DNA of 32,149 nucleotides from a virus: the IMG/VR virus record IMGVR_UViG_3300032086_002624, positions 1-32,149 of that record. The stretch is one strand, 5' to 3'. A program made the translations under genes and the position numbers. This document shows positions 1,765-30,060 of this stretch, piece by piece; position 1 is the stretch's first letter; each line of letters begins with the position of its first letter. The notes under the pieces were generated by a model. The model did not search any database, was not told the DNA's origin, and worked only from the letters and a program-made list of their open reading frames with translations.

Positions 1765-1793
1765 ACTATAGCATTCCAGATCCAGTTAGGCAA
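1765..1793 (-). promoter_or_regulatory. Sigma70-like promoter for the exonuclease operon
   Basis: On the minus strand TTGCCT (1788-1793) and TATAGT (1765-1770) are separated by 17 nt. The -10 box is preceded by TGC, giving an extended -10. The TSS would fall about 7 nt downstream, leaving a leader of roughly 28 nt with an AAAGGA ribosome site before the ATG at 1730. It restarts transcription after the terminator at 1932-1963. Confidence 0.65.
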
Positions 1794-13431: not shown

Positions 13432-13446
13432 GTATTTCCCTTTGGG

Positions 13447-13809: not shown

Positions 13810-13813
13810 TTTC

Positions 13814-14242
13814 TCAATTCCACCATCCGGTTAGTTGTTTAATAGGCACACCGCCAACGTGGCTTATGGTATGCTCCCTATGCCCGTCTACACCGTTCTG
13901 ATTCCCCAGTACATGAACTAGTTCATGTGAGATGAGATGTCGCACCTGCGACTCACGTAGCCCTCCAAATTTTACTTCATCAACCGTGATGGCATTCCCG
14001 ATCGTCCAGCCGTACGTTGTGGCTGGCAGGTTGCCGAAGTTGATCGTCACCTTGTCGATGTCGATCGACATCCCTGTCAAGGCCATCTCGCCGTTAATGC
14101 GTATGGCCTCGGACATCATAACTGCGGACAGGTGAGGGTCGGAGGAGGCAGGAGAAGAACCCCCACCGCCCTCACCGCATCCGACTATGTTTAACAATGC
14201 AACCACGATTGATACTACTTTAAATGTGTTTTTCTTTTTCAT
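13814..14242 (-). CDS. Lipoprotein with HExxH zinc metalloprotease motif
   Basis: This 142-residue protein has a type II signal peptide ending IVGC (C22), a Gly/Ser linker (GEGGGGSSPASS), then a small domain with SHELVHVLGN. H106, E107 and H110 form an HExxH site, and H121 or H124 is a candidate third ligand in a metzincin-like arrangement. It would be a lipid-anchored zinc peptidase in the envelope. The length is small for a protease, so it may be minimal or only structural. The ATG has no Shine-Dalgarno; instead a strong promoter places its -10 box 6 nt ahead, so a leaderless mRNA is likely. It is the first gene of the envelope operon. Confidence 0.68.
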   Translation of the reverse strand: MKKKNTFKVVSIVVALLNIVGCGEGGGGSSPASSDPHLSAVMMSEAIRINGEMALTGMSIDIDKVTINFGNLPATTYGWTIGNAITVDEVKFGGLRESQVRHLISHELVHVLGNQNGVDGHREHTISHVGGVPIKQLTGWWN

Positions 14243-14248
14243 GCTACA

Positions 14249-14278
14249 AATATAACACGAGAAAGCTGGTTATGTCAA
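14249..14278 (-). promoter_or_regulatory. Strong promoter of the envelope operon, leaderless layout
   Basis: On the minus strand a perfect TTGACA (14273-14278) precedes an extended -10 (TGT then TATATT, 14249-14254) by 18 nt. Reading the overlapping TTATAT gives 17 nt. Exactly 6 nt separate TATATT from the ATG at 14242, so the TSS should fall at or next to the A of the start codon. Confidence 0.8.
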
Positions 14279-14285
14279 TCGATAT

Positions 14286-15788
14286 TTACCACAAAGCATT
14301 CCAGACCGTTCCGTCATAGCAGAACAGCTTGTTACTGCTGGAGTGGTAGAATATCATCCCGGCTGTGATCGAGTTGGTCGGCGCACTGGCACGTGGCTCC
14401 ATCTGCATCACGTCCTCGATTACCACAGCGGATACGGCTCCGGTGGCTGTGAACATGGTATTCGTTGCCACTGTGAAGCCGTAGCCAGACCTTGCAGTGT
14501 TCGTATGGATGTTTACGCTGTCGGTGTCGGCGTCCATATAGAGAATGTCGGTCAAGTTGTCTCCATCGAATACGAAGTCGAGATTCCTTAGACCCGGATT
14601 GAAAGTCATCTCCTCGGTGGTGCTTCCTACGATCCCTATGTATTGATCATTGTCTACAGTGAGCCTGAAGTCGAATTGGCTTACCCATTGCAACTTACTT
14701 TGATCTTCTGTTCCAAGCAGTGAACTCCATTTTCTGAAGCCCGCGTCACCATCTTCATCAAGGGACAGCACTACACCGTTCACGTCATTGCTGATGATGA
14801 ATTGATCGGCATTCCCTGCAAGTCCAGATCCGCGAATCTCCACAACATCATTGGTCGCGTACAGTGTCGCTCCAGAGTCTGCTGTAGACCACGGGCTGTC
14901 CCCCTCGCCGTTCTCGTCATGGTGATCGAGAATGACTTCGATCGATCCCGTGGTGGCGTGGGAGTTTACTACGAATGCAATGATCACAGCCTGTGCTGGT
15001 GATGCAGGTGCATTGGTTACGAATCCACCAGCGGTAGTGGAGGAGGCATACAGTGCAGTACCTTCCGGCCATGCGCTTGTATCTATGTCTCGCACCTTAC
15101 CGAATGAGGTCACCTTTCCATCCGCACCGTTGCTTATGTTCTCAGTAGCCACACCAAGGATGTGGGTGATCTCGGTGTTACCGTCTGCGGTGAACAGTTC
15201 TGCCTTCAATCGAGAACTGGCTCCGATAGTACCAGCGAATGAAACCACCGTACCGTTGGTGATGGTAGTGCCAGTGTCGTTCCGTACGTGGATGTGAAGC
15301 TCTTGACCCAACTGGAGAGTGGTTCCATTCTCTTGCAGGTCGATAGTCTCGTCATCTGCATTCCAAGACAGCGTACCCTGATCCCCGGATCCACCGGAGA
15401 ACTGGAGTGAACCTACCTGTGTGATGACGTTGCTTGCAAGGGAGACGGGTCCGTCAAGGAACTCGACGCTACCGTGCAACACGACATCGTTTGTGTTTGC
15501 GGATACGAAGCCGTGAGTGCCAAGTCGAACAAGACCGGCAGAATCCACAGATATCTCCTTTCCAGCAGTGGAGCGAACATCGAATGCAGATGAGCCGTTC
15601 GCAGGGTTGATGGTGACGGCACCACCATCCAGAGATATCACCTCGTCTCCGTTGGCGATGTCGCCAGCATTGGTAATGTTAAACCCACCTGCATCCATGT
15701 TAGATTGCAGGACTAGATCCTTAATGGGTGTCGCTGCCATTGCTAGGCCAGCGAATGTCAGTGCTAAAATTAATTTGAACTTACTCAT
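14286..15788 (-). CDS. Tail fibre / receptor-binding protein with Sec signal peptide
   Basis: This 500-residue protein has Gly/Asn/Thr-rich beta repeats typical of phage fibres, starting with NMDAGGFNITNAGDI and then serial short strands. It ends in a compact FYHSSSNKLFCYDG domain common at fibre tips. Unusually, it begins with what looks like a normal Sec signal peptide: MSKFK, a hydrophobic core and AMA-A near residues 16-19. The ATG has AAGGAGA upstream, so this start is well supported. It lies last in the tail module, where fibres are expected. It probably binds the host surface. Why it would be exported is unclear. Confidence 0.72.
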   Translation of the reverse strand: MSKFKLILALTFAGLAMAATPIKDLVLQSNMDAGGFNITNAGDIANGDEVISLDGGAVTINPANGSSAFDVRSTAGKEISVDSAGLVRLGTHGFVSANTNDVVLHGSVEFLDGPVSLASNVITQVGSLQFSGGSGDQGTLSWNADDETIDLQENGTTLQLGQELHIHVRNDTGTTITNGTVVSFAGTIGASSRLKAELFTADGNTEITHILGVATENISNGADGKVTSFGKVRDIDTSAWPEGTALYASSTTAGGFVTNAPASPAQAVIIAFVVNSHATTGSIEVILDHHDENGEGDSPWSTADSGATLYATNDVVEIRGSGLAGNADQFIISNDVNGVVLSLDEDGDAGFRKWSSLLGTEDQSKLQWVSQFDFRLTVDNDQYIGIVGSTTEEMTFNPGLRNLDFVFDGDNLTDILYMDADTDSVNIHTNTARSGYGFTVATNTMFTATGAVSAVVIEDVMQMEPRASAPTNSITAGMIFYHSSSNKLFCYDGTVWNALW

Positions 15789-15798
15789 GTCTTTCTCC

Positions 15799-16542
15799 TT
15801 ATGCTGTTATGTACTTCAATTTGTAGTTACCGTTATCTGGTGTCGCACTCAGCTCCACCCTGAATCCGTCCGTGGTGATCGTATCTTCGACCACCGTGGC
15901 AAATATGTTGTAGTTGCCTGAAGTCGGCTTGCTCACTGATACCACCACGCTGTCAGGTGTGGATGCAAGGGCCAGTCCTGTAACTACGATGTAGTCCTGT
16001 CCGCTCACCAGTGCGACTGAGCCTCCGTTAGCTCCACCCGAAGCGGCGTCGATGTCCACGCTTCCATCTGCATTGGAAGAGAATGTGATGTTGGTTCCTG
16101 CGCGGTACGGTCCAGAGGTGGCCACGTTCTGGTACGAGGAGAATATCGCGTAGTTGATTACGGGACCAGTGGTGAGTGCAGTAGTACCTGCCTGAAGGAT
16201 GGAGTCCTTGATGATCACAGATCCGTATGCGTGTACGAATGGGTTGCTGGATCCGTCGATGATCACGATCTCAGCGGGGTAGGCTCCTTCTATCGCAAGG
16301 TCGGCTGGTTGCACGTTGAATGTGAACCTGCCAGTGGTCGCGTCCAGAGAGTCGGAGTCGATCTCGTAGAAGACGGTGTCGTCTACATGGTCGTAGTAAT
16401 AAATCTTTGCTGTGTATCCGGTGAGGGATGTGTCTGCATCACCCAGTGTCTGCACGTCTACCAGTACGGTAGCGTTAGATCCCTCGCTAAATACAAATTT
16501 GAAATCGTCGTTGTCGTAGTGCTTGTCTATTATCTGTCGCAT
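15799..16542 (-). CDS. Distal tail / fibre protein with BppU-like N-terminal domain
   Basis: This 247-residue protein has an N-terminal immunoglobulin-like pattern of the BppU kind (DTSLTGYTAKIYYYD, a DATTGRFTFNV turn, then GAYPAEIVIIDG). It is followed by a linker and a C-terminal beta-rich part (TNITFSSNADGSVDIDAASGG). Proteins with this start serve as adaptors that attach fibres to the tail tip. AGGAGATAA precedes the ATG. It lies between a distal tail protein and the fibre, which suits an adaptor role. Domain recognition is by pattern only. Confidence 0.65.
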   Translation of the reverse strand: MRQIIDKHYDNDDFKFVFSEGSNATVLVDVQTLGDADTSLTGYTAKIYYYDHVDDTVFYEIDSDSLDATTGRFTFNVQPADLAIEGAYPAEIVIIDGSSNPFVHAYGSVIIKDSILQAGTTALTTGPVINYAIFSSYQNVATSGPYRAGTNITFSSNADGSVDIDAASGGANGGSVALVSGQDYIVVTGLALASTPDSVVVSVSKPTSGNYNIFATVVEDTITTDGFRVELSATPDNGNYKLKYITA

Positions 16543-16560
16543 TGGTTTATCTCCTATTGA

Positions 16561-17805
16561 TTAAATTCCTGAATCTGGATCTGCAAATGTGTCCCATAAG
16601 CACACCACCGGAGTCTGGTACTGAAAGTAGGTGGCAATGCTATCTGAGCAGGAGGCTCCGTTGGTATCAGCTCCAGCCGAAGCCCGATCCATATAAGTTG
16701 TTGTAGTTATTATCCCTGTCGTATTCGCGTGTGTATCTATAGAACCTGTGTGGACGGTATATTTCTCACCGATGTCGATTAAGTCCTGCCCACCCTGTGA
16801 GAAAGTAAACGTCTTGCAATAGGTGCTTGTCGGCATCGGGTACTGATACGTGTCCGCGCAATCTATTCCGAACTGATAACTCGCCCGTCTGTTCTTGAAC
16901 TGCCACCGCCTCTGCAATGGGTTACCTAGACCAGCAGTGGTGTCGTTGTCGATATATTCATAAACCCTCGGCGGCTCTGCTTGGTCGCCGCTGGATGTCC
17001 AGCTATTAGTATCCCAGTCGGCTTCGGCCTCTGATTTGAGCGTAGCACAGCTCACACTGGTGTCGTATGTCAGTCCAACCTTGTTGTCTGCCGAACCTGT
17101 CCGATATTCGGGTGTCATCTCGATCATGCGAAAATTGTTGGGGTACCGAAGTTTATACCCACCATAAACACCGTACTGTGAGTTGTCCCCGTCCCACATC
17201 CAGTACCCTACGCAATCCTGAATCACCTTGCACAGTGCCTGTGTCTGATTTAGGACTGTTTTGGAAAGGCAGGGATAGCGGGATTTATTCCAACTAATAG
17301 AACCCTGAATGCTGCCGAAATTCTCGACTGAATCATAGCTGGTATCAGGAACCGCTCTCCAGAGGGGAAGCATTCCTGAAGAAGCTTGACTGTCTGTCCA
17401 TTTAGCCGTGTCGATATACTGCGAAGAGTCAACCAGTGAGTCGGCGGCCAGTATGGTGTTGATCCTGTCGATGTACCCCTGATAAAATCCAGTCAGGTCG
17501 TCGGCTAAGTGTGCGCCTTCGGATAATTCGTGCCTGAAGAAGTCCATACCAGATCCGATATACAGATTCAGTCGGGCGTGTAGGTTCCCCATACCGAAGT
17601 CATCCTGAATATCGTCTCCAGTCTGGTGCGTGTCTATGTTTGTGTACGTGTCCCCATACGAAATGTCTGGACTGACCTCCCACATCCACTGCAACTCGTA
17701 CGGAATCCTCTTCATGTCATTCACGAAGGTGATCATCTGGTTGATGAAGGCGGCACCCTTCGTTTGAAAGGTGTCACCTGTCTGCATTGCGGGGATCCAA
17801 GCCAT
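16561..17805 (-). CDS. Tail-tip associated structural protein, unknown
   Basis: This 414-residue protein has no recognised enzymatic motif. It is rich in Tyr, Trp, Asp and Thr and contains eight or more cysteines in the C-terminal half, which is unusual for a virion protein. The start at 17805 (TAATG overlap with the upstream gene, GAGG upstream) is preferred over the longer frame to 17853. Its position after the tape measure and before the fibre proteins points to the distal tail or host recognition. The function is otherwise unknown. Confidence 0.6.
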   Translation of the reverse strand: MAWIPAMQTGDTFQTKGAAFINQMITFVNDMKRIPYELQWMWEVSPDISYGDTYTNIDTHQTGDDIQDDFGMGNLHARLNLYIGSGMDFFRHELSEGAHLADDLTGFYQGYIDRINTILAADSLVDSSQYIDTAKWTDSQASSGMLPLWRAVPDTSYDSVENFGSIQGSISWNKSRYPCLSKTVLNQTQALCKVIQDCVGYWMWDGDNSQYGVYGGYKLRYPNNFRMIEMTPEYRTGSADNKVGLTYDTSVSCATLKSEAEADWDTNSWTSSGDQAEPPRVYEYIDNDTTAGLGNPLQRRWQFKNRRASYQFGIDCADTYQYPMPTSTYCKTFTFSQGGQDLIDIGEKYTVHTGSIDTHANTTGIITTTTYMDRASAGADTNGASCSDSIATYFQYQTPVVCLWDTFADPDSGI

Positions 17806-18497
17806 TACCGCATCCTCACCTTGTCCACGTGCGGATAGCCGTCTGCGTTCCATTGGGCTACTTCGTAGTTTGCTGAGAACTGCGGTGCAAGTGCGGAAGG
17901 CAGGTTACGATCGTACAATTCACCGAAGTGCATCTGAGTCACGCCACCATTAGTATCTACATGAGCAATAGGATAAAACCAGTATGTTCCATCCATACCG
18001 TCGATAGCACCGCTTGTTTGCAACCGGTTCTGTCTTGAGGCTCCACCAGTGTATGTCGGTGCGTAAGTGTCCGCAGTTATGATCTCGCCAACATCATACA
18101 CGCTGTCGGCTGTGTCCGTCCTCATGGTGAGGCGTAGGTTGATATAGCTGGGCCATCCGGCTCCGGGTGAGATCGTGGACTGTGGCACGTTGACCTCTTG
18201 GTTGAATACGTGCGCGTATCCAGAGTCGATCGTGGCTGTGTCACCAGATACAGTGACCTTGAACGGGAACTTAGACGCGAACGGATCTGCCAGCCCGGAC
18301 GGACGCTCGACATCGGATCCGTCACCGACTATGATCCTCCAGCCCATGCCACCGTTGTGCGTAGGTTTGTCGATGCGACAGTTCACACCCTGAATGTCAT
18401 TGAAGACATTCCGCATGAAATTCTCGTCCTCGATGTTGCAGATCGTACGAGCGGGAGTGCCGGGTTTCCAGAGTTTGAATATGTTATTGAATGCCAT
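17805..18497 (-). CDS. Distal tail structural protein, unknown
   Basis: This 230-residue beta-rich protein begins MAFNNIFKLWKPG. Around residues 85-100 it carries FKVTVSGDTATIDSGYAHVF, a pattern also met in phage tail proteins that bear fibres. The stop overlaps the next start as TAATG, so it is coupled to the 414-residue tail protein. It starts 1 nt after the upstream 90-residue gene. A baseplate-like or fibre-connecting role is likely from position; no family was identified. Confidence 0.6.
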   Translation of the reverse strand: MAFNNIFKLWKPGTPARTICNIEDENFMRNVFNDIQGVNCRIDKPTHNGGMGWRIIVGDGSDVERPSGLADPFASKFPFKVTVSGDTATIDSGYAHVFNQEVNVPQSTISPGAGWPSYINLRLTMRTDTADSVYDVGEIITADTYAPTYTGGASRQNRLQTSGAIDGMDGTYWFYPIAHVDTNGGVTQMHFGELYDRNLPSALAPQFSANYEVAQWNADGYPHVDKVRMR

Positions 18498-18498
18498 A

Positions 18499-18771
18499 TC
18501 AGGTGTCCCACGTTCCTATCGTTGCGCTCGCATAGCGTACGTTATAACCGCCACCACCGATCGGTGTCTTCGTTGCACTGTACCCGGAGTCTGCCAGTGC
18601 AGTCAGGTAGGTGTCGGCGGCTGTATCGGTAAGACCTCTACGCTCCCACTCCTGTATCACTACGCTCTGTGTGTACTGATCACCAGTGGCAACGATCCAC
18701 ACACCGTTGTTGTACTCCCGTTTCTGTACCTCAACCAGAGGTGCGTTTGAAACTGTGCTAAACCAACTCAT
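18499..18771 (-). CDS. Small tail-module protein, unknown
   Basis: This 90-residue protein starts MSWFSTVSNAPLVEVQKREYNNGVW. It has a short beta-rich N-terminus, a helical middle (ADTYLTALADSGY) and a Gly-rich turn (IGGGGYNVRY). The ATG is preceded by AGGAGATAG. It lies directly after the tape measure gene, where lambda-like phages encode distal tail (M/L-like) proteins, but its size and sequence do not identify it. Confidence 0.6.
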   Translation of the reverse strand: MSWFSTVSNAPLVEVQKREYNNGVWIVATGDQYTQSVVIQEWERRGLTDTAADTYLTALADSGYSATKTPIGGGGYNVRYASATIGTWDT

Positions 18772-18780
18772 ATCTATCTC

Positions 18781-20691
18781 CTATCTGCCGTTGTCGGCTC
18801 CCTGAAGGTTCTTCTCAAGCAGGGTCTTGATCTGCTCCTGTATCAGCTCTGCCTTCTTCTTCGCGGCCTCCTGTGCCTTACGCTCACGATTGAATGCGCC
18901 CAGAGCCTTCAGCCACTCACGGTCTTCCCGGCTGATCTTGATACCACGTGCGTGTTTGTCCTTCAGTCGTTCAAATCTCTTTGCTACTTCCTTCGTATCA
19001 GCAAAACCTTCCTTGCGTTGCTTCATACGCTCCCGGAACCCAGCGAACCCCTGTGCGAATCCTGCCATTCCTCGCAGGGGGTCTGGAATCTTTGCGGCCT
19101 CCTTGGCCTTTGCAAGCTGATCTCGGAGATCATCTTCACGCATTTTTTTGCGCCTCTCGAACTCCTCCTTCATCATACGTTCACGCTTCTTCTTTGCCTC
19201 CTCCAGAGCCTTGTCCTCTGCGTCTCCTTGTTCCTCGTAAAACTTGTCCCGCGCTTCGCTCTCTTTCGCCCACTGCTCTTCCTGTGCCTCTGTGGCTTTA
19301 ATAGCCGAAGCGATTTCCTGTGCCTCTGTCTTAACCGCTTCTGCACGCTTATCTAGCTCTGCTTGCTTATCTGCTTCCTTCTGCTTTTCCTTCTCACGTG
19401 CAATGCGCTTCAGCTCGTTCTCATGTGCAAGGCTGGCCTGTCTATTTTTGTTCTCCAGCTCCATCGTGCTTTTTAATTCTTTTTTCTGCTTCTCCAGAGA
19501 GTTGATCTGCGTCTGGTAGAATTTCTCCATCGGGCCAACAGCCAGAAACCTCTGCATACCCAACAGCTTCAGGTTGAAGTCGATAAGCGTAAGCTTCATC
19601 TCTTGGAAGGCCAGCTTCATCATGCCCGAATCTTTACGGGCCATACGCATACCTTCTGCGGCAGACTTTAGCAGTTCGGCCAGCTTCTTCAGCCCCGGGC
19701 CCAGAAGGCTGTTCGCTACAGACCCCAGTTCTCTCCATACCGACTGCACTCCCTGCCACGCCTGATCCAGTTCTAGCGCATCTCCGGTGGATCCTTCGAT
19801 AGCATCTGACAATGGATCTGCCGATGAGGTGAGGTCATCCATGGTGCCTATAAACTTGGACATGTTCTCGTCTGTCAATTTCAGGATGGCATTCATACCT
19901 TCCTTACGACCAGTCATCTCCTTCAGCTTGTTGGCGGAACCGTCTGCCTTCTCGCGCATGATCTGGAGTGACTTGATAAATCCGTGGGTAGCGAATGCCC
20001 CATCACCCAGCTCTTGATTCACTGCGAGGATGGCTGCGCTGATCTGTGTAACGGCCTCGGAGGTGGTGTCACCCTTGGATGTGAGAGTGGCGACCGCCGC
20101 AAGTACGTCATCGATCGACACGCCCATCGTGGCCGCGAATGATGTCACCTTGGAAAGGGATCCACCAAGCTCTTCCATGGTGGTCTTACCGTTGTTGACA
20201 GTCTTCTGCATTTTGATGGCAACCTCACCAGCCTGTGAGTATTCCATTCCGAATGCGTTCAGGATCGATGTGAGTCCGTCCACTGATGTTGCCATGGCAG
20301 ATCCATCGACTACCGCCGCCCTTGCCGCCGTACGCATGAACTCAAATATGTTGTCACGGGGTACACCCGCACTCATGGCCTGATAGATGCCCTCCATAGT
20401 CTCTTTTACATCTCGGCCTGTCTTCTCTGACAGCTCTCTTGCCAGTCTTCGGAGTCCAGCATCGAGCTTTCCTCCAGAGGCCACCGCCTCGATCCGTGCC
20501 ATGCCTTTATTGAACTCGTTGAACTTCATTAGTCCACGTGCGAATGCACCAGCCACTACAGCAACGGCACCAGATACACGTCTCGCCCATACGCGGAACC
20601 GCGCACGGGACTCCTTCAGGTTCTTCATCATGCTCTTAAATTTAGAACTGAAGAAGTCCTTCACTCGTATCGCTATATCAATCTTTGCCAT
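18781..20691 (-). CDS. Tail tape measure protein (TP901 family)
   Basis: This 636-residue protein matches the TP901-type tape measure core: GLMKFNEFNKGMARIEAV, a REL..KTG region, SAGVPRDNIFEFMRTAARAA and the SLSKVTSFAATMGVSIDDVLAAVATL block (about residues 50-230). Residues about 390-600 are long charged coiled coil (KEKQKEADKQAELDKRAEA and on). The protein fixes tail length during assembly. At roughly 0.15 nm per residue it predicts a tail near 95 nm, short to medium for a siphovirus. AGGAG precedes the ATG, which overlaps the upstream gene by 14 nt. Confidence 0.93.
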   Translation of the reverse strand: MAKIDIAIRVKDFFSSKFKSMMKNLKESRARFRVWARRVSGAVAVVAGAFARGLMKFNEFNKGMARIEAVASGGKLDAGLRRLARELSEKTGRDVKETMEGIYQAMSAGVPRDNIFEFMRTAARAAVVDGSAMATSVDGLTSILNAFGMEYSQAGEVAIKMQKTVNNGKTTMEELGGSLSKVTSFAATMGVSIDDVLAAVATLTSKGDTTSEAVTQISAAILAVNQELGDGAFATHGFIKSLQIMREKADGSANKLKEMTGRKEGMNAILKLTDENMSKFIGTMDDLTSSADPLSDAIEGSTGDALELDQAWQGVQSVWRELGSVANSLLGPGLKKLAELLKSAAEGMRMARKDSGMMKLAFQEMKLTLIDFNLKLLGMQRFLAVGPMEKFYQTQINSLEKQKKELKSTMELENKNRQASLAHENELKRIAREKEKQKEADKQAELDKRAEAVKTEAQEIASAIKATEAQEEQWAKESEARDKFYEEQGDAEDKALEEAKKKRERMMKEEFERRKKMREDDLRDQLAKAKEAAKIPDPLRGMAGFAQGFAGFRERMKQRKEGFADTKEVAKRFERLKDKHARGIKISREDREWLKALGAFNRERKAQEAAKKKAELIQEQIKTLLEKNLQGADNGR

Positions 20692-21394
20692 TTTTCTCCT
20701 CTTGTAGCTCCCGCTCGATGCGGATCAGCTCACACTGAAAATTGTAGTTGTCTTCTTGGTATCTGGAGTCCTGTATCGATGCACCTACATCTGCGTAGTT
20801 CCCATTCTGCATTCCGTGCATGAGAACTTTCTGCGCGAAATCCAGCGTATTGGACATCCAGTATTCAGCCTTCAGTCCGCTTATGGCTACCAGCCTTGCA
20901 ATCATGTCTTCCTTGTCCACGGCTGGTGAGTCCTTGCCCTGTACGCGCATCACGTCTGCTTCCAGATCCTCTGGAAAGATACGCTCCATTGCATCATCCA
21001 GTTCCTCGATGGTGAAATTCATCCCGCCGATGTACGCTATGATTGCCTTGCGACATTCAGCCTCGACAAACAACGGACGGAAGTCGTAGTCTTCATCGTG
21101 TCCGTACTCCATTGCCAATGCACAGCCGAATCGCTGATCACACGGCTTCAGGATATGCTCGGAAGCATACTCGAACCAGACTCCTGACTTTATAGTCATC
21201 GGCCTCAGAACGCGACCAGAGCCGCCCACCTCCACGCCCCCGTGGGATAACCACGGGAACGTGCGGTGAGTCGGCTCCTGAATACGCCTCGCCAGCTCGA
21301 TGATAGCGGAGATGTGGTCGAGGGTAGGTTCATACCCCTTACCACGAAGCCGCTCAATAGCCTCGGACGCCATATATGGGCAGTCCAGAGACAA
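20678..21394 (-). CDS. Tail assembly chaperone-position protein, TTG start
   Basis: This 238-residue protein lies between the tail tube protein and the tape measure, the usual place of the tail assembly chaperone. Its sequence is mostly helical and acidic (FTIEELDDAMERIFPEDLEADV) and was not recognised as a gpG family member. The start is TTG at 21394 with AAGGA 7 nt upstream; an in-frame ATG at 21373 has no good ribosome site. No second overlapping frame is long enough for a frameshifted gpGT product, since the tape measure starts at once. The chaperone role is inferred from position. Confidence 0.6.
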   Translation of the reverse strand: MSLDCPYMASEAIERLRGKGYEPTLDHISAIIELARRIQEPTHRTFPWLSHGGVEVGGSGRVLRPMTIKSGVWFEYASEHILKPCDQRFGCALAMEYGHDEDYDFRPLFVEAECRKAIIAYIGGMNFTIEELDDAMERIFPEDLEADVMRVQGKDSPAVDKEDMIARLVAISGLKAEYWMSNTLDFAQKVLMHGMQNGNYADVGASIQDSRYQEDNYNFQCELIRIERELQEEKNGKD

Positions 21395-21397
21395 GGC

Positions 21398-22090
21398 TTA
21401 GTCCTTAGTCAGGTCTTTGAATACCTCTACTGACACTGACTCGTAGTCGGTGTTAGTGCTGGACAGTCCGATCGGGTTCTCCAGATTCCAGCTATTAGCT
21501 GTATCAGCGGTACCTGTAGGTGCACTGGTGCAGTTCTGGAGGGTATTGCTGGCTGTCAGGCGGTATCCATAAGGCTCCCGGCAGACAATGTCCCCTTGGC
21601 TGTCTTCAACAGTCGAGGTGTTACCACTGATCTCGATGGATCCGGCGGTGACATAGTTGCCTGTATCGAGTGCTACCAGACCGAAAGTCTGTGCAACCTT
21701 TTTGGCGCGTACGGTTTCACCGATGCTGTAGGTATTGTGAGACGTAGTGCTGTCTTCAGCTATGCCAGTGATTGAGAGCGTAGGCTCTTCACTGTTGCTG
21801 GTGCTGACAGAGATGCTGGTGACGTGTAGCCACAAGGATCCTGAATTGACAACGTCTCCGACCTTGGCAAAGGTGTCGATGTTGATGTCGTTGTTTGTGT
21901 CTCCACCGCCGCATAACTTGTACTCGTTGCTGTACTCGTCAGTCTGTCCTGCTTTCGTCCGGCAACGGATGTCGCCGTTTGAATCACTGACAGTTGCGTC
22001 TGTGGAATAACTCGGTGAAAATTCTCCAGACTGAACTAAAACGGTAGATCCGTTGCTCAATCCGAAGTAGTCGGTAGCTCCATAGCTCAT
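21398..22090 (-). CDS. Major tail tube protein (likely)
   Basis: This 230-residue protein is rich in Ser, Thr, Asn and Asp, with regular short beta strands, as expected of a tail tube subunit (MSYGATDYFGLSNGSTVLVQ at its start). Its length is close to lambda V (246). It is coupled to the upstream gene by a TAATG overlap and lies two genes ahead of the tape measure. The unusual point is six or so cysteines (CRTK, LCGGG, VCRE, NCTS). The call rests on order and composition more than on a motif. Confidence 0.65.
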   Translation of the reverse strand: MSYGATDYFGLSNGSTVLVQSGEFSPSYSTDATVSDSNGDIRCRTKAGQTDEYSNEYKLCGGGDTNNDINIDTFAKVGDVVNSGSLWLHVTSISVSTSNSEEPTLSITGIAEDSTTSHNTYSIGETVRAKKVAQTFGLVALDTGNYVTAGSIEISGNTSTVEDSQGDIVCREPYGYRLTASNTLQNCTSAPTGTADTANSWNLENPIGLSSTNTDYESVSVEVFKDLTKD

Positions 22091-22728
22091 TATTCTTCTT
22101 CCTTATCTTGCTGGGTTTGGGTATTTAACTGATCGAAATAGTGTCTTGCCTGATCGATAAGTCCGTTAAGACCTTCGTCCATATCAGGCTCTTCCCTGAA
22201 TGCGGTCATCGTACCACCTAGCTGTACACCCATGGCTTCAGCCCGGACGCACCATTGCGCCCACGATGGACGCTGTGTAGCGTGGGATGGATCTCTGGTG
22301 TCGATCCCGAATGACTGGATGTACTCGATGGTGTTTCCCTGTGCGTGTTCCAGTAGAGCGTGGGCAAGCATCCAAGACGGTGTGCCTTTGATCTCCACGT
22401 TGCGACCGAATGCGCGAAGCACATCTATCACTGGTAGGTCTACCTGTCTGCGTACGACCGGGATCGGCTGTGTAGTGACCACGTCACACCCACACGCTTC
22501 GAGGTGCGCGAAGTGATCGATCCCCGGCCCCGGCTCCCACCGTTTCAGGTATTCCCACGCATGGATCTCGTACATACGATCGAATCCCCGCTTCTCGAAC
22601 AGGGACGGATAGGTTAGGTAGCTATTGTTCATAGACCACACTTCAGTACCTTCAACGAAGGCTTCGATGGAATCCGCTTTGCGTACGCCTGAGATTCCCA
22701 TACCCAGTATTGTTATTCGTCGGCTCAT
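22090..22728 (-). CDS. Rossmann-like accessory protein (moron) in the tail module
   Basis: This 212-residue protein begins with a Rossmann-type strand and Gly-rich loop (ITILGMGISGVRKADS), followed by TEVWSMNNSY, FDRMYEIH and later CDVVTTQP. It resembles a phage family of unknown function with a GxN-like motif after the first strand. It breaks the usual U-V gene order of lambda-like tails, so it looks like an inserted accessory gene. The ATG has no Shine-Dalgarno and is preceded by its own promoter inside the upstream gene. It may bind a nucleotide or sugar nucleotide. Function unknown. Confidence 0.65.
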   Translation of the reverse strand: MSRRITILGMGISGVRKADSIEAFVEGTEVWSMNNSYLTYPSLFEKRGFDRMYEIHAWEYLKRWEPGPGIDHFAHLEACGCDVVTTQPIPVVRRQVDLPVIDVLRAFGRNVEIKGTPSWMLAHALLEHAQGNTIEYIQSFGIDTRDPSHATQRPSWAQWCVRAEAMGVQLGGTMTAFREEPDMDEGLNGLIDQARHYFDQLNTQTQQDKEEE

Positions 22729-23168
22729 AGATCAAATATAGCACAACAAAGCTTCCATGTCACGCTAAAAGTGAAAGATTGTATATTGTCCCCGATGTCG
22801 GCATCACCTGTACTGGGGATCTCGTATTCATGCACCTCCAGACCAGCTCCGAAATCGAAGTCAGTCTCCTCGATCGTCTTCCGGGTGAGCCTGTAAATCT
22901 CTGCGAAGATGTTGCGGTCATAATCATCGTTGTAGTGCGTACGTCCTACGAATTGCATGACCACCTCACGGAACGGCTCAGAGCCGACTGGCTTCGAGTT
23001 GGGTGATGCCAGTATCCAGAGGCTCGGAAGATCGATCTCTTCGTCTCCAGCCCCGTATGCAGGTTCCGCGAACATCGTACGGATGTCGCAGGTTACTCCG
23101 GCGGCGGTGAATACCGATGCCAGCTCTGTGGCGATTACTGACTCTAGTCTTTGTTCTATGAAGCTCAT
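22725..23168 (-). CDS. Tail terminator-like protein (gpU position)
   Basis: This 147-residue protein has an N-terminal helix (SFIEQRLESVIATELASVF) and a mixed alpha/beta pattern like tail terminator proteins such as lambda gpU (131 residues), which cap the finished tail. It is coupled to the upstream basic protein by an ATGA overlap. The order (after the Z-like protein and before the tail tube protein, once the accessory gene is removed) matches lambda. The last codons contain the promoter of the next gene. Confidence 0.65.
   Translation of the reverse strand: MSFIEQRLESVIATELASVFTAAGVTCDIRTMFAEPAYGAGDEEIDLPSLWILASPNSKPVGSEPFREVVMQFVGRTHYNDDYDRNIFAEIYRLTRKTIEETDFDFGAGLEVHEYEIPSTGDADIGDNIQSFTFSVTWKLCCAIFDL
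22735..22763 (-). promoter_or_regulatory. Promoter of the Rossmann-like accessory gene, leaderless layout
   Basis: On the minus strand GTGACA (22758-22763) and an extended -10 (TGC then TATATT, 22735-22740) are separated by 17 nt. Exactly 6 nt lie between the -10 box and the ATG at 22728. It is embedded in the last codons of the upstream tail gene, whose coding sequence it must also serve. Confidence 0.65.
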
Positions 23169-23857
23169 CCTCTGTGCATTCCAGATCTGGATCCGGTCTT
23201 CCCTCTCTTGGCTCGTATGTTGCGCTTAATTTGTGCGTTCATGTTGTTGATGGTACGCTGTACAACGGTATGCACGTTTGGCCCCTTGCGAGATCCGTAC
23301 ATAGCCTCTGTAGCGTAGTCCAGTCTGTCCAGTAGACGCATCTCTGGATTGAACCTCCTGAGATTATTGGTCACCTTCATGAATCGACCCTTGTTGTCGG
23401 TAGCGAACTCACCGGGATTTGTAAACATCCCCGGATTCGCACCTCTGCCACCGATGCGTCCGATCATCCATCGCCACGTGTTTGCGGCCAGACCACGCTT
23501 AGTGATTGTAGCGCGGGGATCGGCACGTGCAATCTCTTTGCTTCTGGCAACGATCGGGATGTAGACATCCGGCTTGCCACTGCCCATCTTCTTTTGGGCG
23601 TACCATAAATTCTGATTCTTATTCCGTGTGGCAGTCTTATTCCCTGCCTTCTTCGGGTTCTTTACGATCCTGCGCTTCTTGGGAGCTACCTTGGTTGCGG
23701 CCCGTGCCGCTTTACAGTAACGGATTGCCGCCCATCGTACTCCGTCTCTGGACAGCCCTTTGAATGCTTGGCTGTTCTGCTTTACGAACTGCTCCAGTGG
23801 ACGCGGATCCATGGCCATCATAACTGTCTTGGAATCTACTATGACCTTCTTCGACAT
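23165..23857 (-). CDS. Basic tail-completion protein (gpZ position)
   Basis: This 230-residue protein is strongly basic (KVAPKKRRIVKNPKKAG in the first third and QIKRNIRAKRGKTGS near the end). It has a mostly helical start and a Gly/Asn-rich middle. By order and size it fits the gpZ or HK97 gp10-like minor tail proteins that finish the tail end joining the head. TAATG couples it to the upstream neck protein. The basic tails may contact packaged DNA. No motif proves the call. Confidence 0.6.
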   Translation of the reverse strand: MSKKVIVDSKTVMMAMDPRPLEQFVKQNSQAFKGLSRDGVRWAAIRYCKAARAATKVAPKKRRIVKNPKKAGNKTATRNKNQNLWYAQKKMGSGKPDVYIPIVARSKEIARADPRATITKRGLAANTWRWMIGRIGGRGANPGMFTNPGEFATDNKGRFMKVTNNLRRFNPEMRLLDRLDYATEAMYGSRKGPNVHTVVQRTINNMNAQIKRNIRAKRGKTGSRSGMHRG

Positions 23858-24204
23858 TATTCGTACAGGTGCTTCACGGACAAACGAATCACGCCATCGA
23901 CCGCATCGATAGACTTGCCCATGATCCGCATGGTTAAATCTTCACCACCGACATCTGCACCAGATAGAACGATGCGCTCGTTCGTGCGTACGGTGGAGGT
24001 TACGTCTGCCAGATTAGCGTGCAAGACAAAGTCGTAGTCCTCTCCCAGTCCGTGGAATGCGGCGGTCTGCTCCAGAGAGAGATCGTTGCGTATCGCAGTA
24101 AACGTCTCGCCACGGTATAGGCAAGTGACGTTGGCTCCAGAGAACCAGTTGCTCTGCATGCGGGAGAACTTCTGTCTTATTGATGCTTTGCTAAATCCGG
24201 CCAT
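23857..24204 (-). CDS. Head-tail connector protein (gpFII position)
   Basis: This 115-residue protein follows the capsid gene, where lambda FII (117 residues) and similar neck proteins lie. It has a short helical N-terminus (SKASIRQKFSRMQ) and then beta strands (VTCLYRGETFTAI, IVLSGADVGGEDLTMRI). AAGGATT precedes the ATG. FII-like proteins join filled heads to tails. Sequence similarity was not checked; length, position and beta-rich pattern support the call. Confidence 0.6.
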   Translation of the reverse strand: MAGFSKASIRQKFSRMQSNWFSGANVTCLYRGETFTAIRNDLSLEQTAAFHGLGEDYDFVLHANLADVTSTVRTNERIVLSGADVGGEDLTMRIMGKSIDAVDGVIRLSVKHLYE

Positions 24205-24223
24205 TTATAAATCCTTAAAAATG

Positions 24224-24254
24224 CCCCCCGCTTCACCTTTCGGATCCACGGGGG
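24224..24254 (-). terminator. GC hairpin after the capsid gene, weak terminator or processing site
   Basis: On the minus strand a 6-bp stem (24249-24254 with 24225-24230) encloses an 18-nt loop that includes a possible small CC-GAAA-GG hairpin. It is followed by CATTTTT. It lies between the capsid stop and the connector start. A partial terminator here would explain higher expression of capsid than of the neck genes. Confidence 0.5.
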
Positions 24255-24278
24255 ACGGTGTGGGTAGGGAAACCTATA

Positions 24279-25202
24279 TTAGGAAACTACCGCTTCAGTG
24301 TTCACGATGGCGTCAGTGACGACAACGGGGATACCGAATGCTTCGCTCGGGAACGGAGCAGGTGCGCCAGTGACGTTAGTCGCTGTGCGAGACTGCTGGA
24401 GTTGTTTGAGTGAAGTACGGTTCAGCCAGATCTGGTTCGGCTGGCGTGATGCCGGGAACAGGCTCAGAGACTCAGCGATGAGATCATCGGTGAGAGGAGA
24501 ACCAGCGTCGAGGTTACAGATGCGAGATACGCTCTGTGCAGAACCCTTCTGGATTCCACCCCAACCAGTTACTGGGATGTAGTATGCCGGGTAAGTGGCA
24601 GAACCAGTGTCAGTAACTTTGATTACGCTCGGCTCATCTTCAGTGTTGAAGCTGATGTTGCCGTCATTACCTGCAACGTAGCTCAAGTCTGCGTCACCTG
24701 TGCGAACCAAGTAGCAAGAAGAAACTGCGTTAGTGTCAGTTCCACCTGCACCGTATACCATAGCGTCAGCCAGGGCGTCGAGGTCGGCGTTGTCTTCCAG
24801 ACCAGCGAAACCGCCAGTGTCGTTGTTGGTACCACGGATCAACTGTTGCTCAGTAGCGAACATGGCTTGCTTGAGAGAGCGCATCAATTCGATCTCCAAG
24901 TATGCGTCACGTCCACCACGGTAGCCGTTAGCCTCTGCAACGTCCACGAAGAAAGAAGCATCGAGAACTTTGAGAGTAACGTCAACCTGAGTGTCGGCTG
25001 ATTTGGTTTTGGTCGCACCAGCATCGATGGCGCGGAAAGCCGCACTTGAAGCAGTAGTCTGCTTCTTGTAGCGGTGGTTCGTTCCGTTAGACGCGGGAAT
25101 CGCGTTTACGGCTTGCATGACAGGCGCGTCATCGAGAAGATCAGAGATCATCTCGTCAGACAGACGCTGGTCATTGAATTGTACTAAGTGTGCGAGAGAC
25201 AT
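24279..25202 (-). CDS. Major capsid protein
   Basis: This 307-residue protein follows the protease-scaffold gene and precedes the connector genes. Its N-terminus (QRLSDEMISDLLDDAPVMQAV), a GTNHRYKK segment and a long helix-like EIELMRSLKQAMFATEQQLI stretch match a group of phage capsid proteins with the HK97 fold. Its codon use differs visibly from neighbours (many GCA, GTT and GAG codons), as expected for a highly expressed protein. AAGGATT precedes the ATG. No separate decoration protein gene (lambda D) was found. Confidence 0.85.
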   Translation of the reverse strand: MSLAHLVQFNDQRLSDEMISDLLDDAPVMQAVNAIPASNGTNHRYKKQTTASSAAFRAIDAGATKTKSADTQVDVTLKVLDASFFVDVAEANGYRGGRDAYLEIELMRSLKQAMFATEQQLIRGTNNDTGGFAGLEDNADLDALADAMVYGAGGTDTNAVSSCYLVRTGDADLSYVAGNDGNISFNTEDEPSVIKVTDTGSATYPAYYIPVTGWGGIQKGSAQSVSRICNLDAGSPLTDDLIAESLSLFPASRQPNQIWLNRTSLKQLQQSRTATNVTGAPAPFPSEAFGIPVVVTDAIVNTEAVVS

Positions 25203-25236
25203 TTTATTTTAATCCTTTCTGTCCTTGCGTTAATGT

Positions 25237-26406
25237 TTACTTGCGAGTGTTGAACAAGCCAGCACGTTGGGCAACTTCCTTAGAAGCAGGTACGGGTGCA
25301 GTGGTGTCCTTCTTGGATCCCAACTGCTTCTTGAGTGATTCGTTCTCTTCCTTGAGAGCTTCGAATGCAATCAACTGTGCCTTTTCGTAACCTCCACCTT
25401 CAGTGAATGCGATGGCGGCGATTTCGGCTCCGAATGCTTCTACGGTGCGCTTCAGTTCTGACAGTTCGACTTTTGCCTCTTCAACTTCCTCGGCACACTC
25501 CGGTGCTTCGTCCGCTTCGAGGGCTTCTTCTTCTACTTCGGGGACAGTAGGCTCCGCACTCTCCTCGACAGATTCTTCCACGGCAGTCTCTTCGATCACT
25601 TCTGCGACCGGAACGACTTCCTCTTCTTGTACTTCTTGTACTTCTTCGTTCACTTTATCTTCTTCCTTTTTAGGGGTTTGAGTTATGTAGGATTTGGCGA
25701 GTCGTTCTTGATACGCCGTAATAAATTCGTTTACGTTCTTACCGTATTTCTCGATGGCATCGAGTACGTCAGGGTTGGACGCCAGAGAGGTGAACACGTC
25801 AGGATGATCTTGGAAGAACATCTCCAGTTGACCAGCGATTGTCTCACCAGAGAACAGACCTTCGTTGGCGGCTGGTTCGTCTACAGCGTCACACCCGTGC
25901 AGGGTGTCCAGCTCGACGTACAGCTCCTCAGAGACGAGGTTGCTGTCGAATGATGTCTCCGCACTCATGTATACGTTCTCCCCTGTCTCCAGATCCTTGC
26001 GGAACGTCTCTCCGGGTGTGAAGCAGATCGAGGTGCCGAAGCTCTCTGGTGCGTTCTGGGCCATGCTCAGAACGTAGTCACCCAGCCGACCGTTGGGGCT
26101 GTTGTTGGCTTCGTTGCTTATGTGCAGATCGGCTCTGGCAATGTCGCCATCCCGGTGGAAATTCTTGAACGTGCCAAGATAGGTTCCCAGTGCGGTGCTA
26201 CACATTGACGGATGCCCGAATCGAGCCTTGAGTCCGTTGCGTTTCTGGTTGCCCTGCATGACTACTCGATCGATGAACTCACTGTCCAGATGGACTCCGT
26301 GACCCTTGGCCACTCCCATCGTGCATACAGCTACGTTCTTGATCGTGTTGCCCTCCACGGATTCAGGAGTGGCGTGAAACATTTTGGTCTTGTACCATGT
26401 ACCCAT
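25237..26406 (-). CDS. Prohead protease fused to scaffold
   Basis: This 389-residue protein starts with a prohead protease domain (about 1-180): ARFGHPSM with H65, LGTYLGTFKNF, ADLHI and SFGTSICF with S126, in the order of S14/S78-type serine proteases. A helical linker follows, then a very acidic segment (about 250-320, mostly Glu and Val), a helix (VEEAKVELSELKRTVEAF) and a C-terminal coiled coil (FEALKEENESLKKQL) that acts as scaffold. The layout equals lambda C plus Nu3 in one chain. An internal GTG at 25653 with AGGAAG upstream could give a scaffold-only product. AGGAATAAT precedes the ATG. Confidence 0.85.
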   Translation of the reverse strand: MGTWYKTKMFHATPESVEGNTIKNVAVCTMGVAKGHGVHLDSEFIDRVVMQGNQKRNGLKARFGHPSMCSTALGTYLGTFKNFHRDGDIARADLHISNEANNSPNGRLGDYVLSMAQNAPESFGTSICFTPGETFRKDLETGENVYMSAETSFDSNLVSEELYVELDTLHGCDAVDEPAANEGLFSGETIAGQLEMFFQDHPDVFTSLASNPDVLDAIEKYGKNVNEFITAYQERLAKSYITQTPKKEEDKVNEEVQEVQEEEVVPVAEVIEETAVEESVEESAEPTVPEVEEEALEADEAPECAEEVEEAKVELSELKRTVEAFGAEIAAIAFTEGGGYEKAQLIAFEALKEENESLKKQLGSKKDTTAPVPASKEVAQRAGLFNTRK

Positions 26407-26408
26407 TA

Positions 26409-27968
26409 TTATTCCTCGTTAGATTCTGGTTCTACCGGTGCTTCCGGCGGTGGTTCGGTTTCGCTGTCAGGCTTGCCGTCTACGGCTTCCTCACCAGCGA
26501 TGGGTGATCCCGGCTGGCCGATCGACCAGATGACACCACGCTCATTGAGATACTCCTGCTCTTCGCCAAGCTCATCAGCGATTTCGTAGAAGTCTAAATT
26601 CTGCTCCCGGCACAGACGCTGTCTGGATACCAGACCGTTTGCCAACATGGTGGCGGCGGCTGATGCCTGTTCCTTGCGATTGATCCAAGGCATACCCACA
26701 GCGATAGGCGCACATGCATCGAACAGGTCTTCTTCGTCATCGAAGACTGACTCAGCGATACGCGCCATCTCTGGGTTACCTGCAAGCATACTCTGGATCT
26801 GCCAGTCACGCCACTCTTCTACGTCCTCCATAGTGGCTTGCTGTTTTTCTTTTGCTGATCGTTCATAGTCGGCGCGGTCTGCGAGGGTGTGGCTAAAGCT
26901 TGATTCTCTACCATCGAAAGCACTGAAGGGTATGTCCAAGGCCAGAAGTGCCGCTCTCACCTGCTCCTTCCAGAACTCAACCGTGTCGGTATGGGGCGTT
27001 TTCGACTCCAGCAGATCTACGCGATCGCCCGGCTCAAGGTCAAGGTTCAACAGGTTGCCATCGATGTTGATGTCGTAGCCACCGTCATCTTCCACAGCTC
27101 CGTCTGGATCGGTCTGGTAGGCAGGAGAACCTGAGTATGGTAGCCCAGTCTCGTCACCTTCCAGATCCCGGTAGAATGCGAAGCCAAGCAGTGCATGAAC
27201 ACGTTGCTTCATCAGGGTGTACTGCCAAGACTCGTACAGGTCTTGGAATTGGTTGAGTGCGCTGGACAGAGGGGAGACACCACGGTTCTGACTTCCACGG
27301 ATGAAGTATCCAGAGAAGATTGCGGATTCGCGGGGAACCAGTCCCTGATACTCCAGTGTGCGTCCGTCTTCCGCGTAGCCTGTCAGGCAGAAGTCAGTGA
27401 TGCGTCCGTAGCGATCAAGTATCAATCCCTCATCGTTAACTCTGTCCTTAATCCTCTTCGGCAGTGGTCTACCGTTCATACCTCGATCTGGCATAGCGAT
27501 TCGCGTCGAGTCGATAAGCTGTACACTCATGTCGGGCAATTTGAGCATGAGGTGATCCCCAGAGAGTACCTTTCCTATCTCTCGGAGCGCGAATCCGCTA
27601 TGGAAATTATGTTGTCCAGCCACATCGAAAGCTCTGCGCTTCATGCGTCTGCGGAACTCCTTTGTCAGGAAGTTGGTCAGTGCTTCATCCGGGGTGCGGA
27701 TCTTGAAGTTGAACTGACTCACGTAGCTGATATGCTTGCGGATGGCCCACGCTACGATGCCGTAGTTCCGAAGCTGATCCCATGCCGCCGCTTCCATGCG
27801 TCTACGCTTTGGAAGGTTCAGGGTTACGTTCTCCGACATTAACTTCTTGGGACCAGACTTACGCTTCCCGTCATGGACGGAGGCTTGGTACTCGAAGTTT
27901 GTTGTGGATTGTTTCGGGATCTTGCGTCCGGTGGCAGAGTAGAGGCCACTAAAGTCATCGTTTTTCAT
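26409..27968 (-). CDS. Portal protein (lambda gpB type)
   Basis: This 519-residue protein has the length and pattern of lambda-type portals (lambda B, 533). Visible features are WDQLRNYGIVAWAIRKHISYVSQF, a FRRRMKRRAFDVAGQHNF block, FSGYFIRGSQNRGVSPLSSALNQF and a helical YESWQYTLMKQRVHALLGF. The C-terminus is acidic and proline-rich (DSETEPPPEAPVEPESNEE), likely disordered. It forms the ring through which DNA enters. The ATG overlaps the gpW-like stop as ATGA, and the protease start follows after 2 nt, so the trio is coupled. Confidence 0.88.
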   Translation of the reverse strand: MKNDDFSGLYSATGRKIPKQSTTNFEYQASVHDGKRKSGPKKLMSENVTLNLPKRRRMEAAAWDQLRNYGIVAWAIRKHISYVSQFNFKIRTPDEALTNFLTKEFRRRMKRRAFDVAGQHNFHSGFALREIGKVLSGDHLMLKLPDMSVQLIDSTRIAMPDRGMNGRPLPKRIKDRVNDEGLILDRYGRITDFCLTGYAEDGRTLEYQGLVPRESAIFSGYFIRGSQNRGVSPLSSALNQFQDLYESWQYTLMKQRVHALLGFAFYRDLEGDETGLPYSGSPAYQTDPDGAVEDDGGYDINIDGNLLNLDLEPGDRVDLLESKTPHTDTVEFWKEQVRAALLALDIPFSAFDGRESSFSHTLADRADYERSAKEKQQATMEDVEEWRDWQIQSMLAGNPEMARIAESVFDDEEDLFDACAPIAVGMPWINRKEQASAAATMLANGLVSRQRLCREQNLDFYEIADELGEEQEYLNERGVIWSIGQPGSPIAGEEAVDGKPDSETEPPPEAPVEPESNEE

Positions 27969-28171
27969 ATGAATTTAATCCTGCGAGCGGTGGGTCGCTT
28001 TCCGCTGTCCCGTGCTATTTGCTTTAACAGTTCTTTGCGATACATACGAAGGGATGAGAGGTTGGCTTCCGTGTACTCCAGATCCCCGATCTTCCCGGCC
28101 TGTCCAGTAGTGGAGATCCGGTTGATAGCCTCTTCGATGTCGTCAAGTAATTTTTGCTTGTGAATTGACAT
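27965..28171 (-). CDS. gpW-like head-tail joining protein
   Basis: This 68-residue protein has exactly the length of lambda gpW and its pattern: an N-terminal helix (KQKLLDDIEEAINRI), a short hairpin around GKIGDLEYTEA, then a helix (LSSLRMYRKELLKQI) and a basic tail. gpW fills the portal exit before gpFII binds. Its position directly before the portal gene matches lambda A-W-B. The ATG has no Shine-Dalgarno, but a good promoter lies just upstream with its -10 box 8 nt from the ATG. Confidence 0.75.
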   Translation of the reverse strand: MSIHKQKLLDDIEEAINRISTTGQAGKIGDLEYTEANLSSLRMYRKELLKQIARDSGKRPTARRIKFI

Positions 28172-28179
28172 AGGTAAAC

Positions 28180-28209
28180 ACTATAGCATTTCTATACCGA
28201 TCTTGTCAA
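28180..28209 (-). promoter_or_regulatory. Promoter of the head operon, leaderless layout
   Basis: On the minus strand a perfect TTGACA (28204-28209) and an extended -10 (TGC then TATAGT, 28180-28185) are separated by 18 nt. The ATG of the gpW-like gene follows after 8 nt. It restarts transcription of gpW, portal and capsid genes downstream of the inserted HNH gene. A 6-bp AT hairpin (28217-28234) overlaps the end of that gene. Confidence 0.75.
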
Positions 28210-28227
28210 GCATATAGTTATATATTT

Positions 28228-28713
28228 TTATAACAGCGTGGGGCCACGGTAGTTAGGGTCAAGACCTACAAGGTTCTTAAACGTGTGGAAAGCTATGCGA
28301 GCCTCTGTTTTAGTCGGGTATCGACCCAGATTTGTATCCACATTGTCTATCTGTATTCTGGAGCGGAACTTCCCATCATGATCTTTTAGGTATCCACGTG
28401 CCTCCCTGTTGTGCTGGTTCTGGACGGCACTAACCACTCTCAGGTTCTGGATTCGGTTATCATGTCGGTCCCTATTTATATGATCCACAATTCCGTCAGG
28501 CCACTCACCAGTGGTGAGCAGTATTGCCAGACGGTGTGTTCTGTGAACTCCTCCATTCAAGCCTATTGTCAGGTATCCTGACTTCTGCTTGGTTCCTGAA
28601 AACCAGCCCTTCTTCTGTGCTGATGAGGTGTGAACCCTCCACCTAAAAAATCCAGTCTCAGGATCGTACTCCAGCTTCTCGCTTACTTCTTCGTATGTAG
28701 GTAATTTCTTCAT
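28228..28713 (-). CDS. HNH homing endonuclease with AP2-like DNA-binding region
   Basis: This 161-residue protein has an N-terminal YDPETGFFRW element typical of phage HNH endonucleases, the HNH core HRLAILLTTGEWPDGIVDHINRD (about 78-100) with DNRIQNLRVVSAVQNQHNR, and a C-terminal segment (GRYPTKTEARIAFHTF) like an AP2 DNA-binding domain. Such genes are free-standing mobile elements that cut related phages lacking them. It sits between the zinc-ribbon gene and gpW, has its own promoter, and its ATG has no Shine-Dalgarno. Confidence 0.88.
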   Translation of the reverse strand: MKKLPTYEEVSEKLEYDPETGFFRWRVHTSSAQKKGWFSGTKQKSGYLTIGLNGGVHRTHRLAILLTTGEWPDGIVDHINRDRHDNRIQNLRVVSAVQNQHNREARGYLKDHDGKFRSRIQIDNVDTNLGRYPTKTEARIAFHTFKNLVGLDPNYRGPTLL

Positions 28714-28719
28714 ACATCA

Positions 28720-28748
28720 ACTATAGCAAACTATATACCTGTAGTCAA
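28720..28748 (-). promoter_or_regulatory. Promoter of the HNH homing endonuclease, leaderless layout
   Basis: On the minus strand TTGACT (28743-28748) and an extended -10 (TGC then TATAGT, 28720-28725) are separated by 17 nt. Exactly 6 nt lie between the -10 box and the ATG at 28713. The -35 box starts directly after the stop of the zinc-ribbon gene, as seen for the promoter at 127-157. Confidence 0.75.
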
Positions 28749-28967
28749 TCAAACATCGACAGGCTCTTTAGTCACATAGCACTGTCCGCATCCTTTGCAC
28801 TTGCATCTACGCCTACGAACCGATGCCGGGCCGTAATAAGTATGAGTTACAGTCCGCTCTGAACACCCGCACCGGAGACAGCCTTTCGGCTGTTCGTTGC
28901 TGGCATACATACTGGATCTCTTCCGGGGGGCGGTCTTCTTCTTACTTGTTTTCTTTTTGGATGGCAT
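28749..28967 (-). CDS. Small zinc-ribbon protein with Lys-rich N-terminus
   Basis: This 72-residue protein has a basic start (MPSKKKTSKKKTAPRKR) and a zinc ribbon made of CLRCG and CKCKGCG about 20 residues apart, preceded by RRRR. The pattern recalls the NrdR or Ogr type of small DNA- or RNA-binding zinc ribbon. It overlaps the glycosyltransferase-like gene by 26 nt. It probably binds nucleic acid and may regulate phage or host genes. The target is unknown. Confidence 0.7.
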   Translation of the reverse strand: MPSKKKTSKKKTAPRKRSSMYASNEQPKGCLRCGCSERTVTHTYYGPASVRRRRCKCKGCGQCYVTKEPVDV

Positions 28968-30004: not shown

Positions 30005-30060
30005 CTCACTATCCTTCCCGCACTTGCATTGCTCTCCCACACGGGGAGGTTTCTTACAGC

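Follow-up and report, generated by a model that had tools for sequence, protein, structure and literature searches.

Four genes of an uncultivated virus are predicted to be expressed from leaderless mRNAs. Each begins with an ATG that lies 6 to 8 nt downstream of a strong sigma70-type promoter with an extended -10 element. The RNA made by the host RNA polymerase would have the A of the ATG as its first base (at 28171 its 5' end may lie a few nt away), and the mRNA would be read via its 5'-terminal AUG. This reading is given a probability of about 0.8 on the basis of the sequence. The window, i.e., the whole stretch of DNA that was analyzed, comprises 32,149 bases and corresponds to one uncultivated virus record.

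The four genes encode a predicted lipoprotein, a 212-aa protein, a gpW-like head-tail adaptor, and an HNH endonuclease (Table 1). The head genes of the phage follow a lambda-like order (terminase, gpW-like adaptor, portal, capsid). The lipoprotein gave metallopeptidase matches in Pfam, all of them below threshold. Other genes in the window include one for a Band 7/SPFH-domain protein (7363-7836), a class 3 lipase-like gene (PF01764; 11296-12036) that adjoins a group of small lipoprotein-like genes, and, among the latter, a second HNH nuclease gene (PF01844; 12033-12338) that has no top-ranked promoter.

Table 1. Genes with predicted leaderless starts, their promoters, and a leadered promoter for contrast. 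Spacer lengths count TGn as part of the spacer; the number before ATG is the distance in nt from the end of the -10 element to the ATG.
Feature	Position	Strand	Layout	Remarks
Predicted lipoprotein, 142 aa	13814..14242	minus		lipobox ...LLNIVGC; HELVH motif; SD-less ATG at 14242
Promoter at start 14242	14249..14278	minus	TTGACA-18-(TGT)TATATT-6-ATG	
Protein of unknown function, 212 aa	22090..22728	minus		ATG overlaps upstream stop as ATGA
Promoter at start 22728	22735..22763	minus	GTGACA-17-(TGC)TATATT-6-ATG	within 3' end of upstream gene
gpW-like head-tail adaptor, 68 aa	27965..28171	minus		phrog_118
Promoter at start 28171	28180..28209	minus	TTGACA-18-(TGC)TATAGT-8-ATG	least certain of the four
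HNH_3 endonuclease, 161 aa	28228..28713	minus		phrog_99
Promoter at start 28713	28720..28748	minus	TTGACT-17-(TGC)TATAGT-6-ATG	-35 directly after upstream stop codon
Contrast promoter	1765..1793	minus	TTGCCT-17-(TGC)TATAGT	ordinary leadered promoter; gene at 1730, about 34 nt downstream, has an SD site

Promoters at the four genes

A position-weight scan of both strands of the whole window placed the four sites at ranks 1 to 4 among sigma70-type promoters, with scores of 16.4, 16.0, 15.5, and 14.0 that serve for ranking only, as the weight-matrix values were set from general sigma70 consensus frequencies. The fifth-ranked promoter (at 1770) is leadered and precedes a gene with a Shine-Dalgarno (SD) site. 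All four sites have the features of sigma70 extended -10 promoters, namely 10 or 11 of the 12 consensus bases together with the TG. The original prediction had given coordinates, hexamers, spacers, and -10-to-ATG distances (6, 6, 8, and 6 nt) for these sites, all of which were confirmed. The comparison with shuffled sequence that it proposed also came out in its favor: the strict core [TG]TGAC[AT]-N14/15-TGnTATAnT has 4 occurrences in the window, whereas 1500 dinucleotide shuffles contained 0.004 on average. Each of these four strict cores lies on the coding strand, 6 to 8 nt from an ATG. A loose scan of positions 13000-32149 for 9 of 12 consensus bases revealed no surplus (17 sites found versus 16.5 expected in shuffles). 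Thus, the signal rests on match quality and placement and not on the number of promoter-like sites.

Start codons and Shine-Dalgarno pairing

The start codon is ATG in all four genes. Their pairings with the anti-SD sequence (+0.4 to +0.7 kcal/mol) are the weakest four among the 34 gene starts, the remaining 30 ranging from -9.3 to -0.2 kcal/mol, and the odds that the four sites would be the weakest four by chance are about 1 in 46,000. The claim that SD sites are absent from these starts and present at most others therefore holds. Most genes of the contig have an SD site, and the leaderless layout is found at a minority of genes, those with the strongest promoters. No in-frame upstream start is available at any of the four genes, as an upstream stop lies 2 to 10 codons away. 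Within 30 codons downstream, no in-frame start is present for 28171 or 28713, and the other in-frame candidates are weak, the best having an anti-SD pairing of -3.9 kcal/mol.

Distance between promoter and ATG in environmental phages

Two samples were drawn from viral_contigs by pattern scans. One was an exact-pattern scan with N6-ATG (at least 120 stretches), while the other used N11-ATG and hence was not selected for d = 6, where d is the number of nt between the -10 element and the ATG. Among the matches listed in the N6-ATG sample, 77 of 126 ATGs begin ORFs of 60 aa or more; those of at least 80 aa include genes for a T4-like DNA polymerase, a 5'-3' exonuclease, UvsY, and UvdE. The corresponding count in the N11-ATG sample is 26 of 119 (ORFs of at least 60 aa).

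The test of the spacing proper is the distribution of distances in the N11-ATG sample. A reversed-pattern control, used in the scans of viral records and of Verrucomicrobiota genomes, contains no promoters and tests promoter presence, not spacing. When other promoter cores in the N11-ATG sample were counted (at most one mismatch in the -35 element), 6 had d = 6 and no core had d = 3, 4, 5, 7, 8, or 9, with a second hump at d of about 21-40. An SD site was present at 0 of 6 cores with d = 5-8 versus 93 of 111 cores with d = 20-40, and phages in general seldom have distances of 9-16 nt. The -10-to-ATG distance in environmental phages is bimodal: SD sites are lacking at the 6-nt spike and usual in the hump at about 21-40 nt.

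The bases around the presumed start of transcription give a further indication. At 132 leadered phage promoters the sixth base after the -10 element is C or T in 85% of cases and the seventh is A in 72%. A C or T stands directly before the ATG in 70 of 77 genes with the leaderless layout versus 73 of 132 leadered ATGs. The A of the ATG occupies base 7 after the -10 element, i.e., the signature position, at three of the four sites in the window. Since this Y-1/A+1 signature falls on bases 6 and 7, the A of the ATG sits at the expected +1.

The +1 triplets at the 260 strong cores of the N11-ATG sample include ATA (38), ATC (34), ATG (9), and ATT (1); the initiator favors A and T, so ATG at +1 is not enriched as such and can arise by accident. 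The support from spacing lies in the link of the +1 ATG to real ORFs without SD sites. False layouts do exist: five Verrucomicrobiota genomes that were inspected have an ATG at d = 8 that precedes, in the same frame, the apparent, SD-bearing start of gatB (named from its protein sequence and not from a database match).

Proposed mechanism and alternative explanations

Host RNA polymerase would begin each transcript with the A of the ATG or, in the case of 28171, no more than a few nt from it; this placement of +1 is deduced from the spacing and the Y-1/A+1 signature. The resulting leaderless mRNAs would be translated by ribosomes that recognize the 5'-terminal AUG instead of an SD site. Initiation of the 70S type is taken from the literature, according to which leaderless translation depends on a 5' AUG and proceeds mostly on 70S ribosomes (PMC9031893; PMC4633059). 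RNA that reads through from upstream would be translated poorly, and each gene would depend on its own promoter, with the qualification that coupling through the ATGA overlap may operate at 22728.

Starts without SD sites could also be served by translational coupling, or by SD-independent reinitiation, on a late polycistronic transcript, in which case the promoter-like sequences would matter little. The overlap of the start at 22728 with the upstream stop is in keeping with this, as is another SD-poor start, at 23857, that likewise abuts its upstream gene. However, the three other starts lie 36-57 nt past the upstream stop, which is far for coupling, and coupling does not predict that the window's best promoters stand at all four starts; it is considered quite unlikely. 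A similarly low probability is assigned to real promoters that start transcription a few nt upstream, yielding very short leaders of 2-6 nt and mRNAs that are not truly leaderless. The site at 28171 would suit such leaders, as 8 nt separate its -10 element from the ATG and an A occupies the fifth base after the -10 element, whereas at the other three sites the distance has its modal value, 6 nt, and a pyrimidine (-1) precedes the A (+1); the general rarity of 9-16 nt distances in phages speaks against short leaders as well.

Alternatively, the promoters might belong to other transcripts or to starts farther downstream, with the ATGs near +1 being incidental. The gatB case in some Verrucomicrobiota is a precedent, and the initiator consensus by itself favors A and T at +1 and +2. 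Nevertheless, this is very unlikely given that downstream in-frame starts are absent (28171 and 28713) or have weak SD sites and that the signal peptide of the lipoprotein and the N terminus of the HNH protein fit the ATGs used. That the sites resemble promoters merely by chance, toward which the loose scan leans, is hardly credible in view of the excess of strict cores over shuffles, their shared position relative to the genes, and their common placement on the coding strand. The leaderless reading put forward in the original prediction is, by comparison, well supported by promoter quality, exact spacing, the absence of SD sites and of alternative starts, and the bimodality and start signature in environmental phages.

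Relatives of the phage and its probable host

Megablast, tblastn, and peptide-pattern scans of phages and viral_contigs revealed no close relatives of the portal, 500-aa, 212-aa, or capsid proteins. The best match of the capsid protein among phages is to Akkermansia phage Chantilly (26.6% identity). Relatives of the capsid protein, with up to 47% identity, were found in 13 of 388 genomes from the phylum of an Akkermansia MAG (Verrucomicrobiota), in 0 of 386 genomes from the phylum of an alphaproteobacterial genome, and in 0 of 383 from that of a Flammeovirga genome. The Verrucomicrobiota contigs that carry capsid relatives may be viral contigs binned into genomes. The host of the phage is likely to belong to the Verrucomicrobiota, judging from these protein matches. 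The phylum includes members in which SD sites are scarce, e.g., Akkermansia muciniphila (PMC10783764).

Three Verrucomicrobiota-associated contigs (G139, G316, and G048) carry related terminase, portal, and capsid genes. In G139 the terminase gene is followed by a small gene that is lysine-rich and cysteine-bearing, then by a gpW-sized gene and the portal gene. Relative to this order, which contains no HNH gene, the HNH gene of the window is an insertion between the small cysteine-bearing gene and the gpW-like gene. Between the terminase and gpW regions the window also contains a 194-aa gene of unknown function (28942-29526) and a gene for a WxcM/FdtA-like cupin of the sugar isomerase type (29523-29930), both of which are missing from G139 at the corresponding place.

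The small gene that precedes the portal gene has an SD site in all three contigs (3/3); it was equated with gpW by position, size, and appearance, as BLAST gave no gpW match. In G316 this gene has a promoter, TTGTAA-18-TATATT, 34 nt upstream, and a strong SD site precedes the G139 relative of the 212-aa gene. The leaderless layout is not conserved among the phage's own relatives in these three contigs. Since the relatives have ordinary SD sites, the leaderless form of the gpW-like and 212-aa genes was probably derived in this phage.

Origin of the promoters

The original prediction described three of the four as inserted or module-opening genes and suggested a self-contained expression cassette used by accessory genes. 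The HNH nuclease and lipoprotein genes do look accessory; neither of the other two does, as the gpW-like adaptor and 212-aa genes have syntenic relatives in other phage contigs, and these relatives bear SD sites. Both descriptions are therefore only partly right, and a shared cassette is not established. When the promoter spacers were compared, the best of the 15 pairs was equaled in 75 of 5000 shuffles, which is not significant after correction for 15 comparisons, leaving the copying of one promoter cassette four times unsupported. The HNH family was likewise rejected as a carrier of the cassette: a strong promoter 6 nt before the ATG was found in only 1 of 79 HNH relatives with a usable start (L355), and the remaining relatives lack such a promoter, most of them having SD sites. 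The four promoters were more probably placed independently of one another than copied as a cassette.

In the Manatee Spring podovirus MW202483, the HNH gene (L352, 1489-1977) is preceded by TTTACT-17-TATACT-6-ATG with TGC before the -10 element. It lies on the opposite strand between the portal and stabilization genes, and L355 has the same promoter sequence.

Relation to known leaderless systems

Leaderless phage genes have so far been known one at a time. They are a known but uncommon kind, and their density in this one phage is unusual. The leaderless mRNAs of Escherichia coli (lambda cI, P2, and Tn1721) resemble the present case in that a single gene on mobile DNA is read from a 5'-terminal AUG without an SD site (PMC4633059); here, in contrast, one 32-kb contig, from what is probably a Verrucomicrobiota phage, has four separate genes with predicted leaderless starts, and two of these belong to the morphogenesis region. 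In the PvuII restriction-modification system the C-dependent transcript of an accessory regulator begins at the initiator codon and is independent of a ribosome-binding site (PMC2997769), whereas the promoters described here look like plain sigma70 sites. In Mycobacterium, Deinococcus, and others, leaderless transcription occurs genome-wide, likewise with the ATG at or next to +1 and no SD site (PMC9031893), but in this phage most genes have SD sites and the leaderless layout is confined to a minority at the strongest promoters.

According to the survey, environmental phages may have a few percent of their consensus sigma70 promoters exactly at the leaderless distance; an ATG stands at +1 in 9 of 260 cores, and not all nine open genes. 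The starts of such genes may be misplaced by start-codon callers that weigh SD sites. A speculative and rather unlikely idea is that leaderless starts constitute a second mode of expression, in which chosen genes, including some in the head/tail region whose relatives have SD sites, are made only from their own promoters through a ribosome pathway of another kind, which might suit SD-poor hosts or ribosomes altered late in infection.

Occurrence in other phages and in Verrucomicrobiota genomes

With 9/260 as background, the probability that four of five strong cores would show the leaderless layout is near 7e-6, a figure that is a guide only since the five cores were chosen by score. Several such sites also occur in some other viral records (e.g., five in 21.8 kb), and such sites are also present in the cultured Pelagibacter phage Mosig and Methylophilales phage Melnitz-3. 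The cassettes at uvsY and gp43 were not conserved in cultured T4-like relatives at the starts that were read.

At least one exact match to the layout was found in 98 of 376 Verrucomicrobiota genomes, mostly at a few per several megabases. This sparseness indicates that the density seen in the phage is not general for the phylum. A host-wide leaderless habit was rejected as the cause, as matches in Verrucomicrobiota genomes are sparse and some (gatB) are not leaderless.

A repeated element was noticed in contigs of one Verrucomicrobiota genome (G166; e.g., L501 and L502). It has the form TTGACTTTTN...TGGTATAATTAGTTG[C/A]ATG, the ATG opening a 15-aa ORF whose stop overlaps the next ATG as ATGA, and ten near-identical copies are listed. 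The repeat may encode a leader peptide that is made from a leaderless mRNA and coupled to a mobile-element gene.
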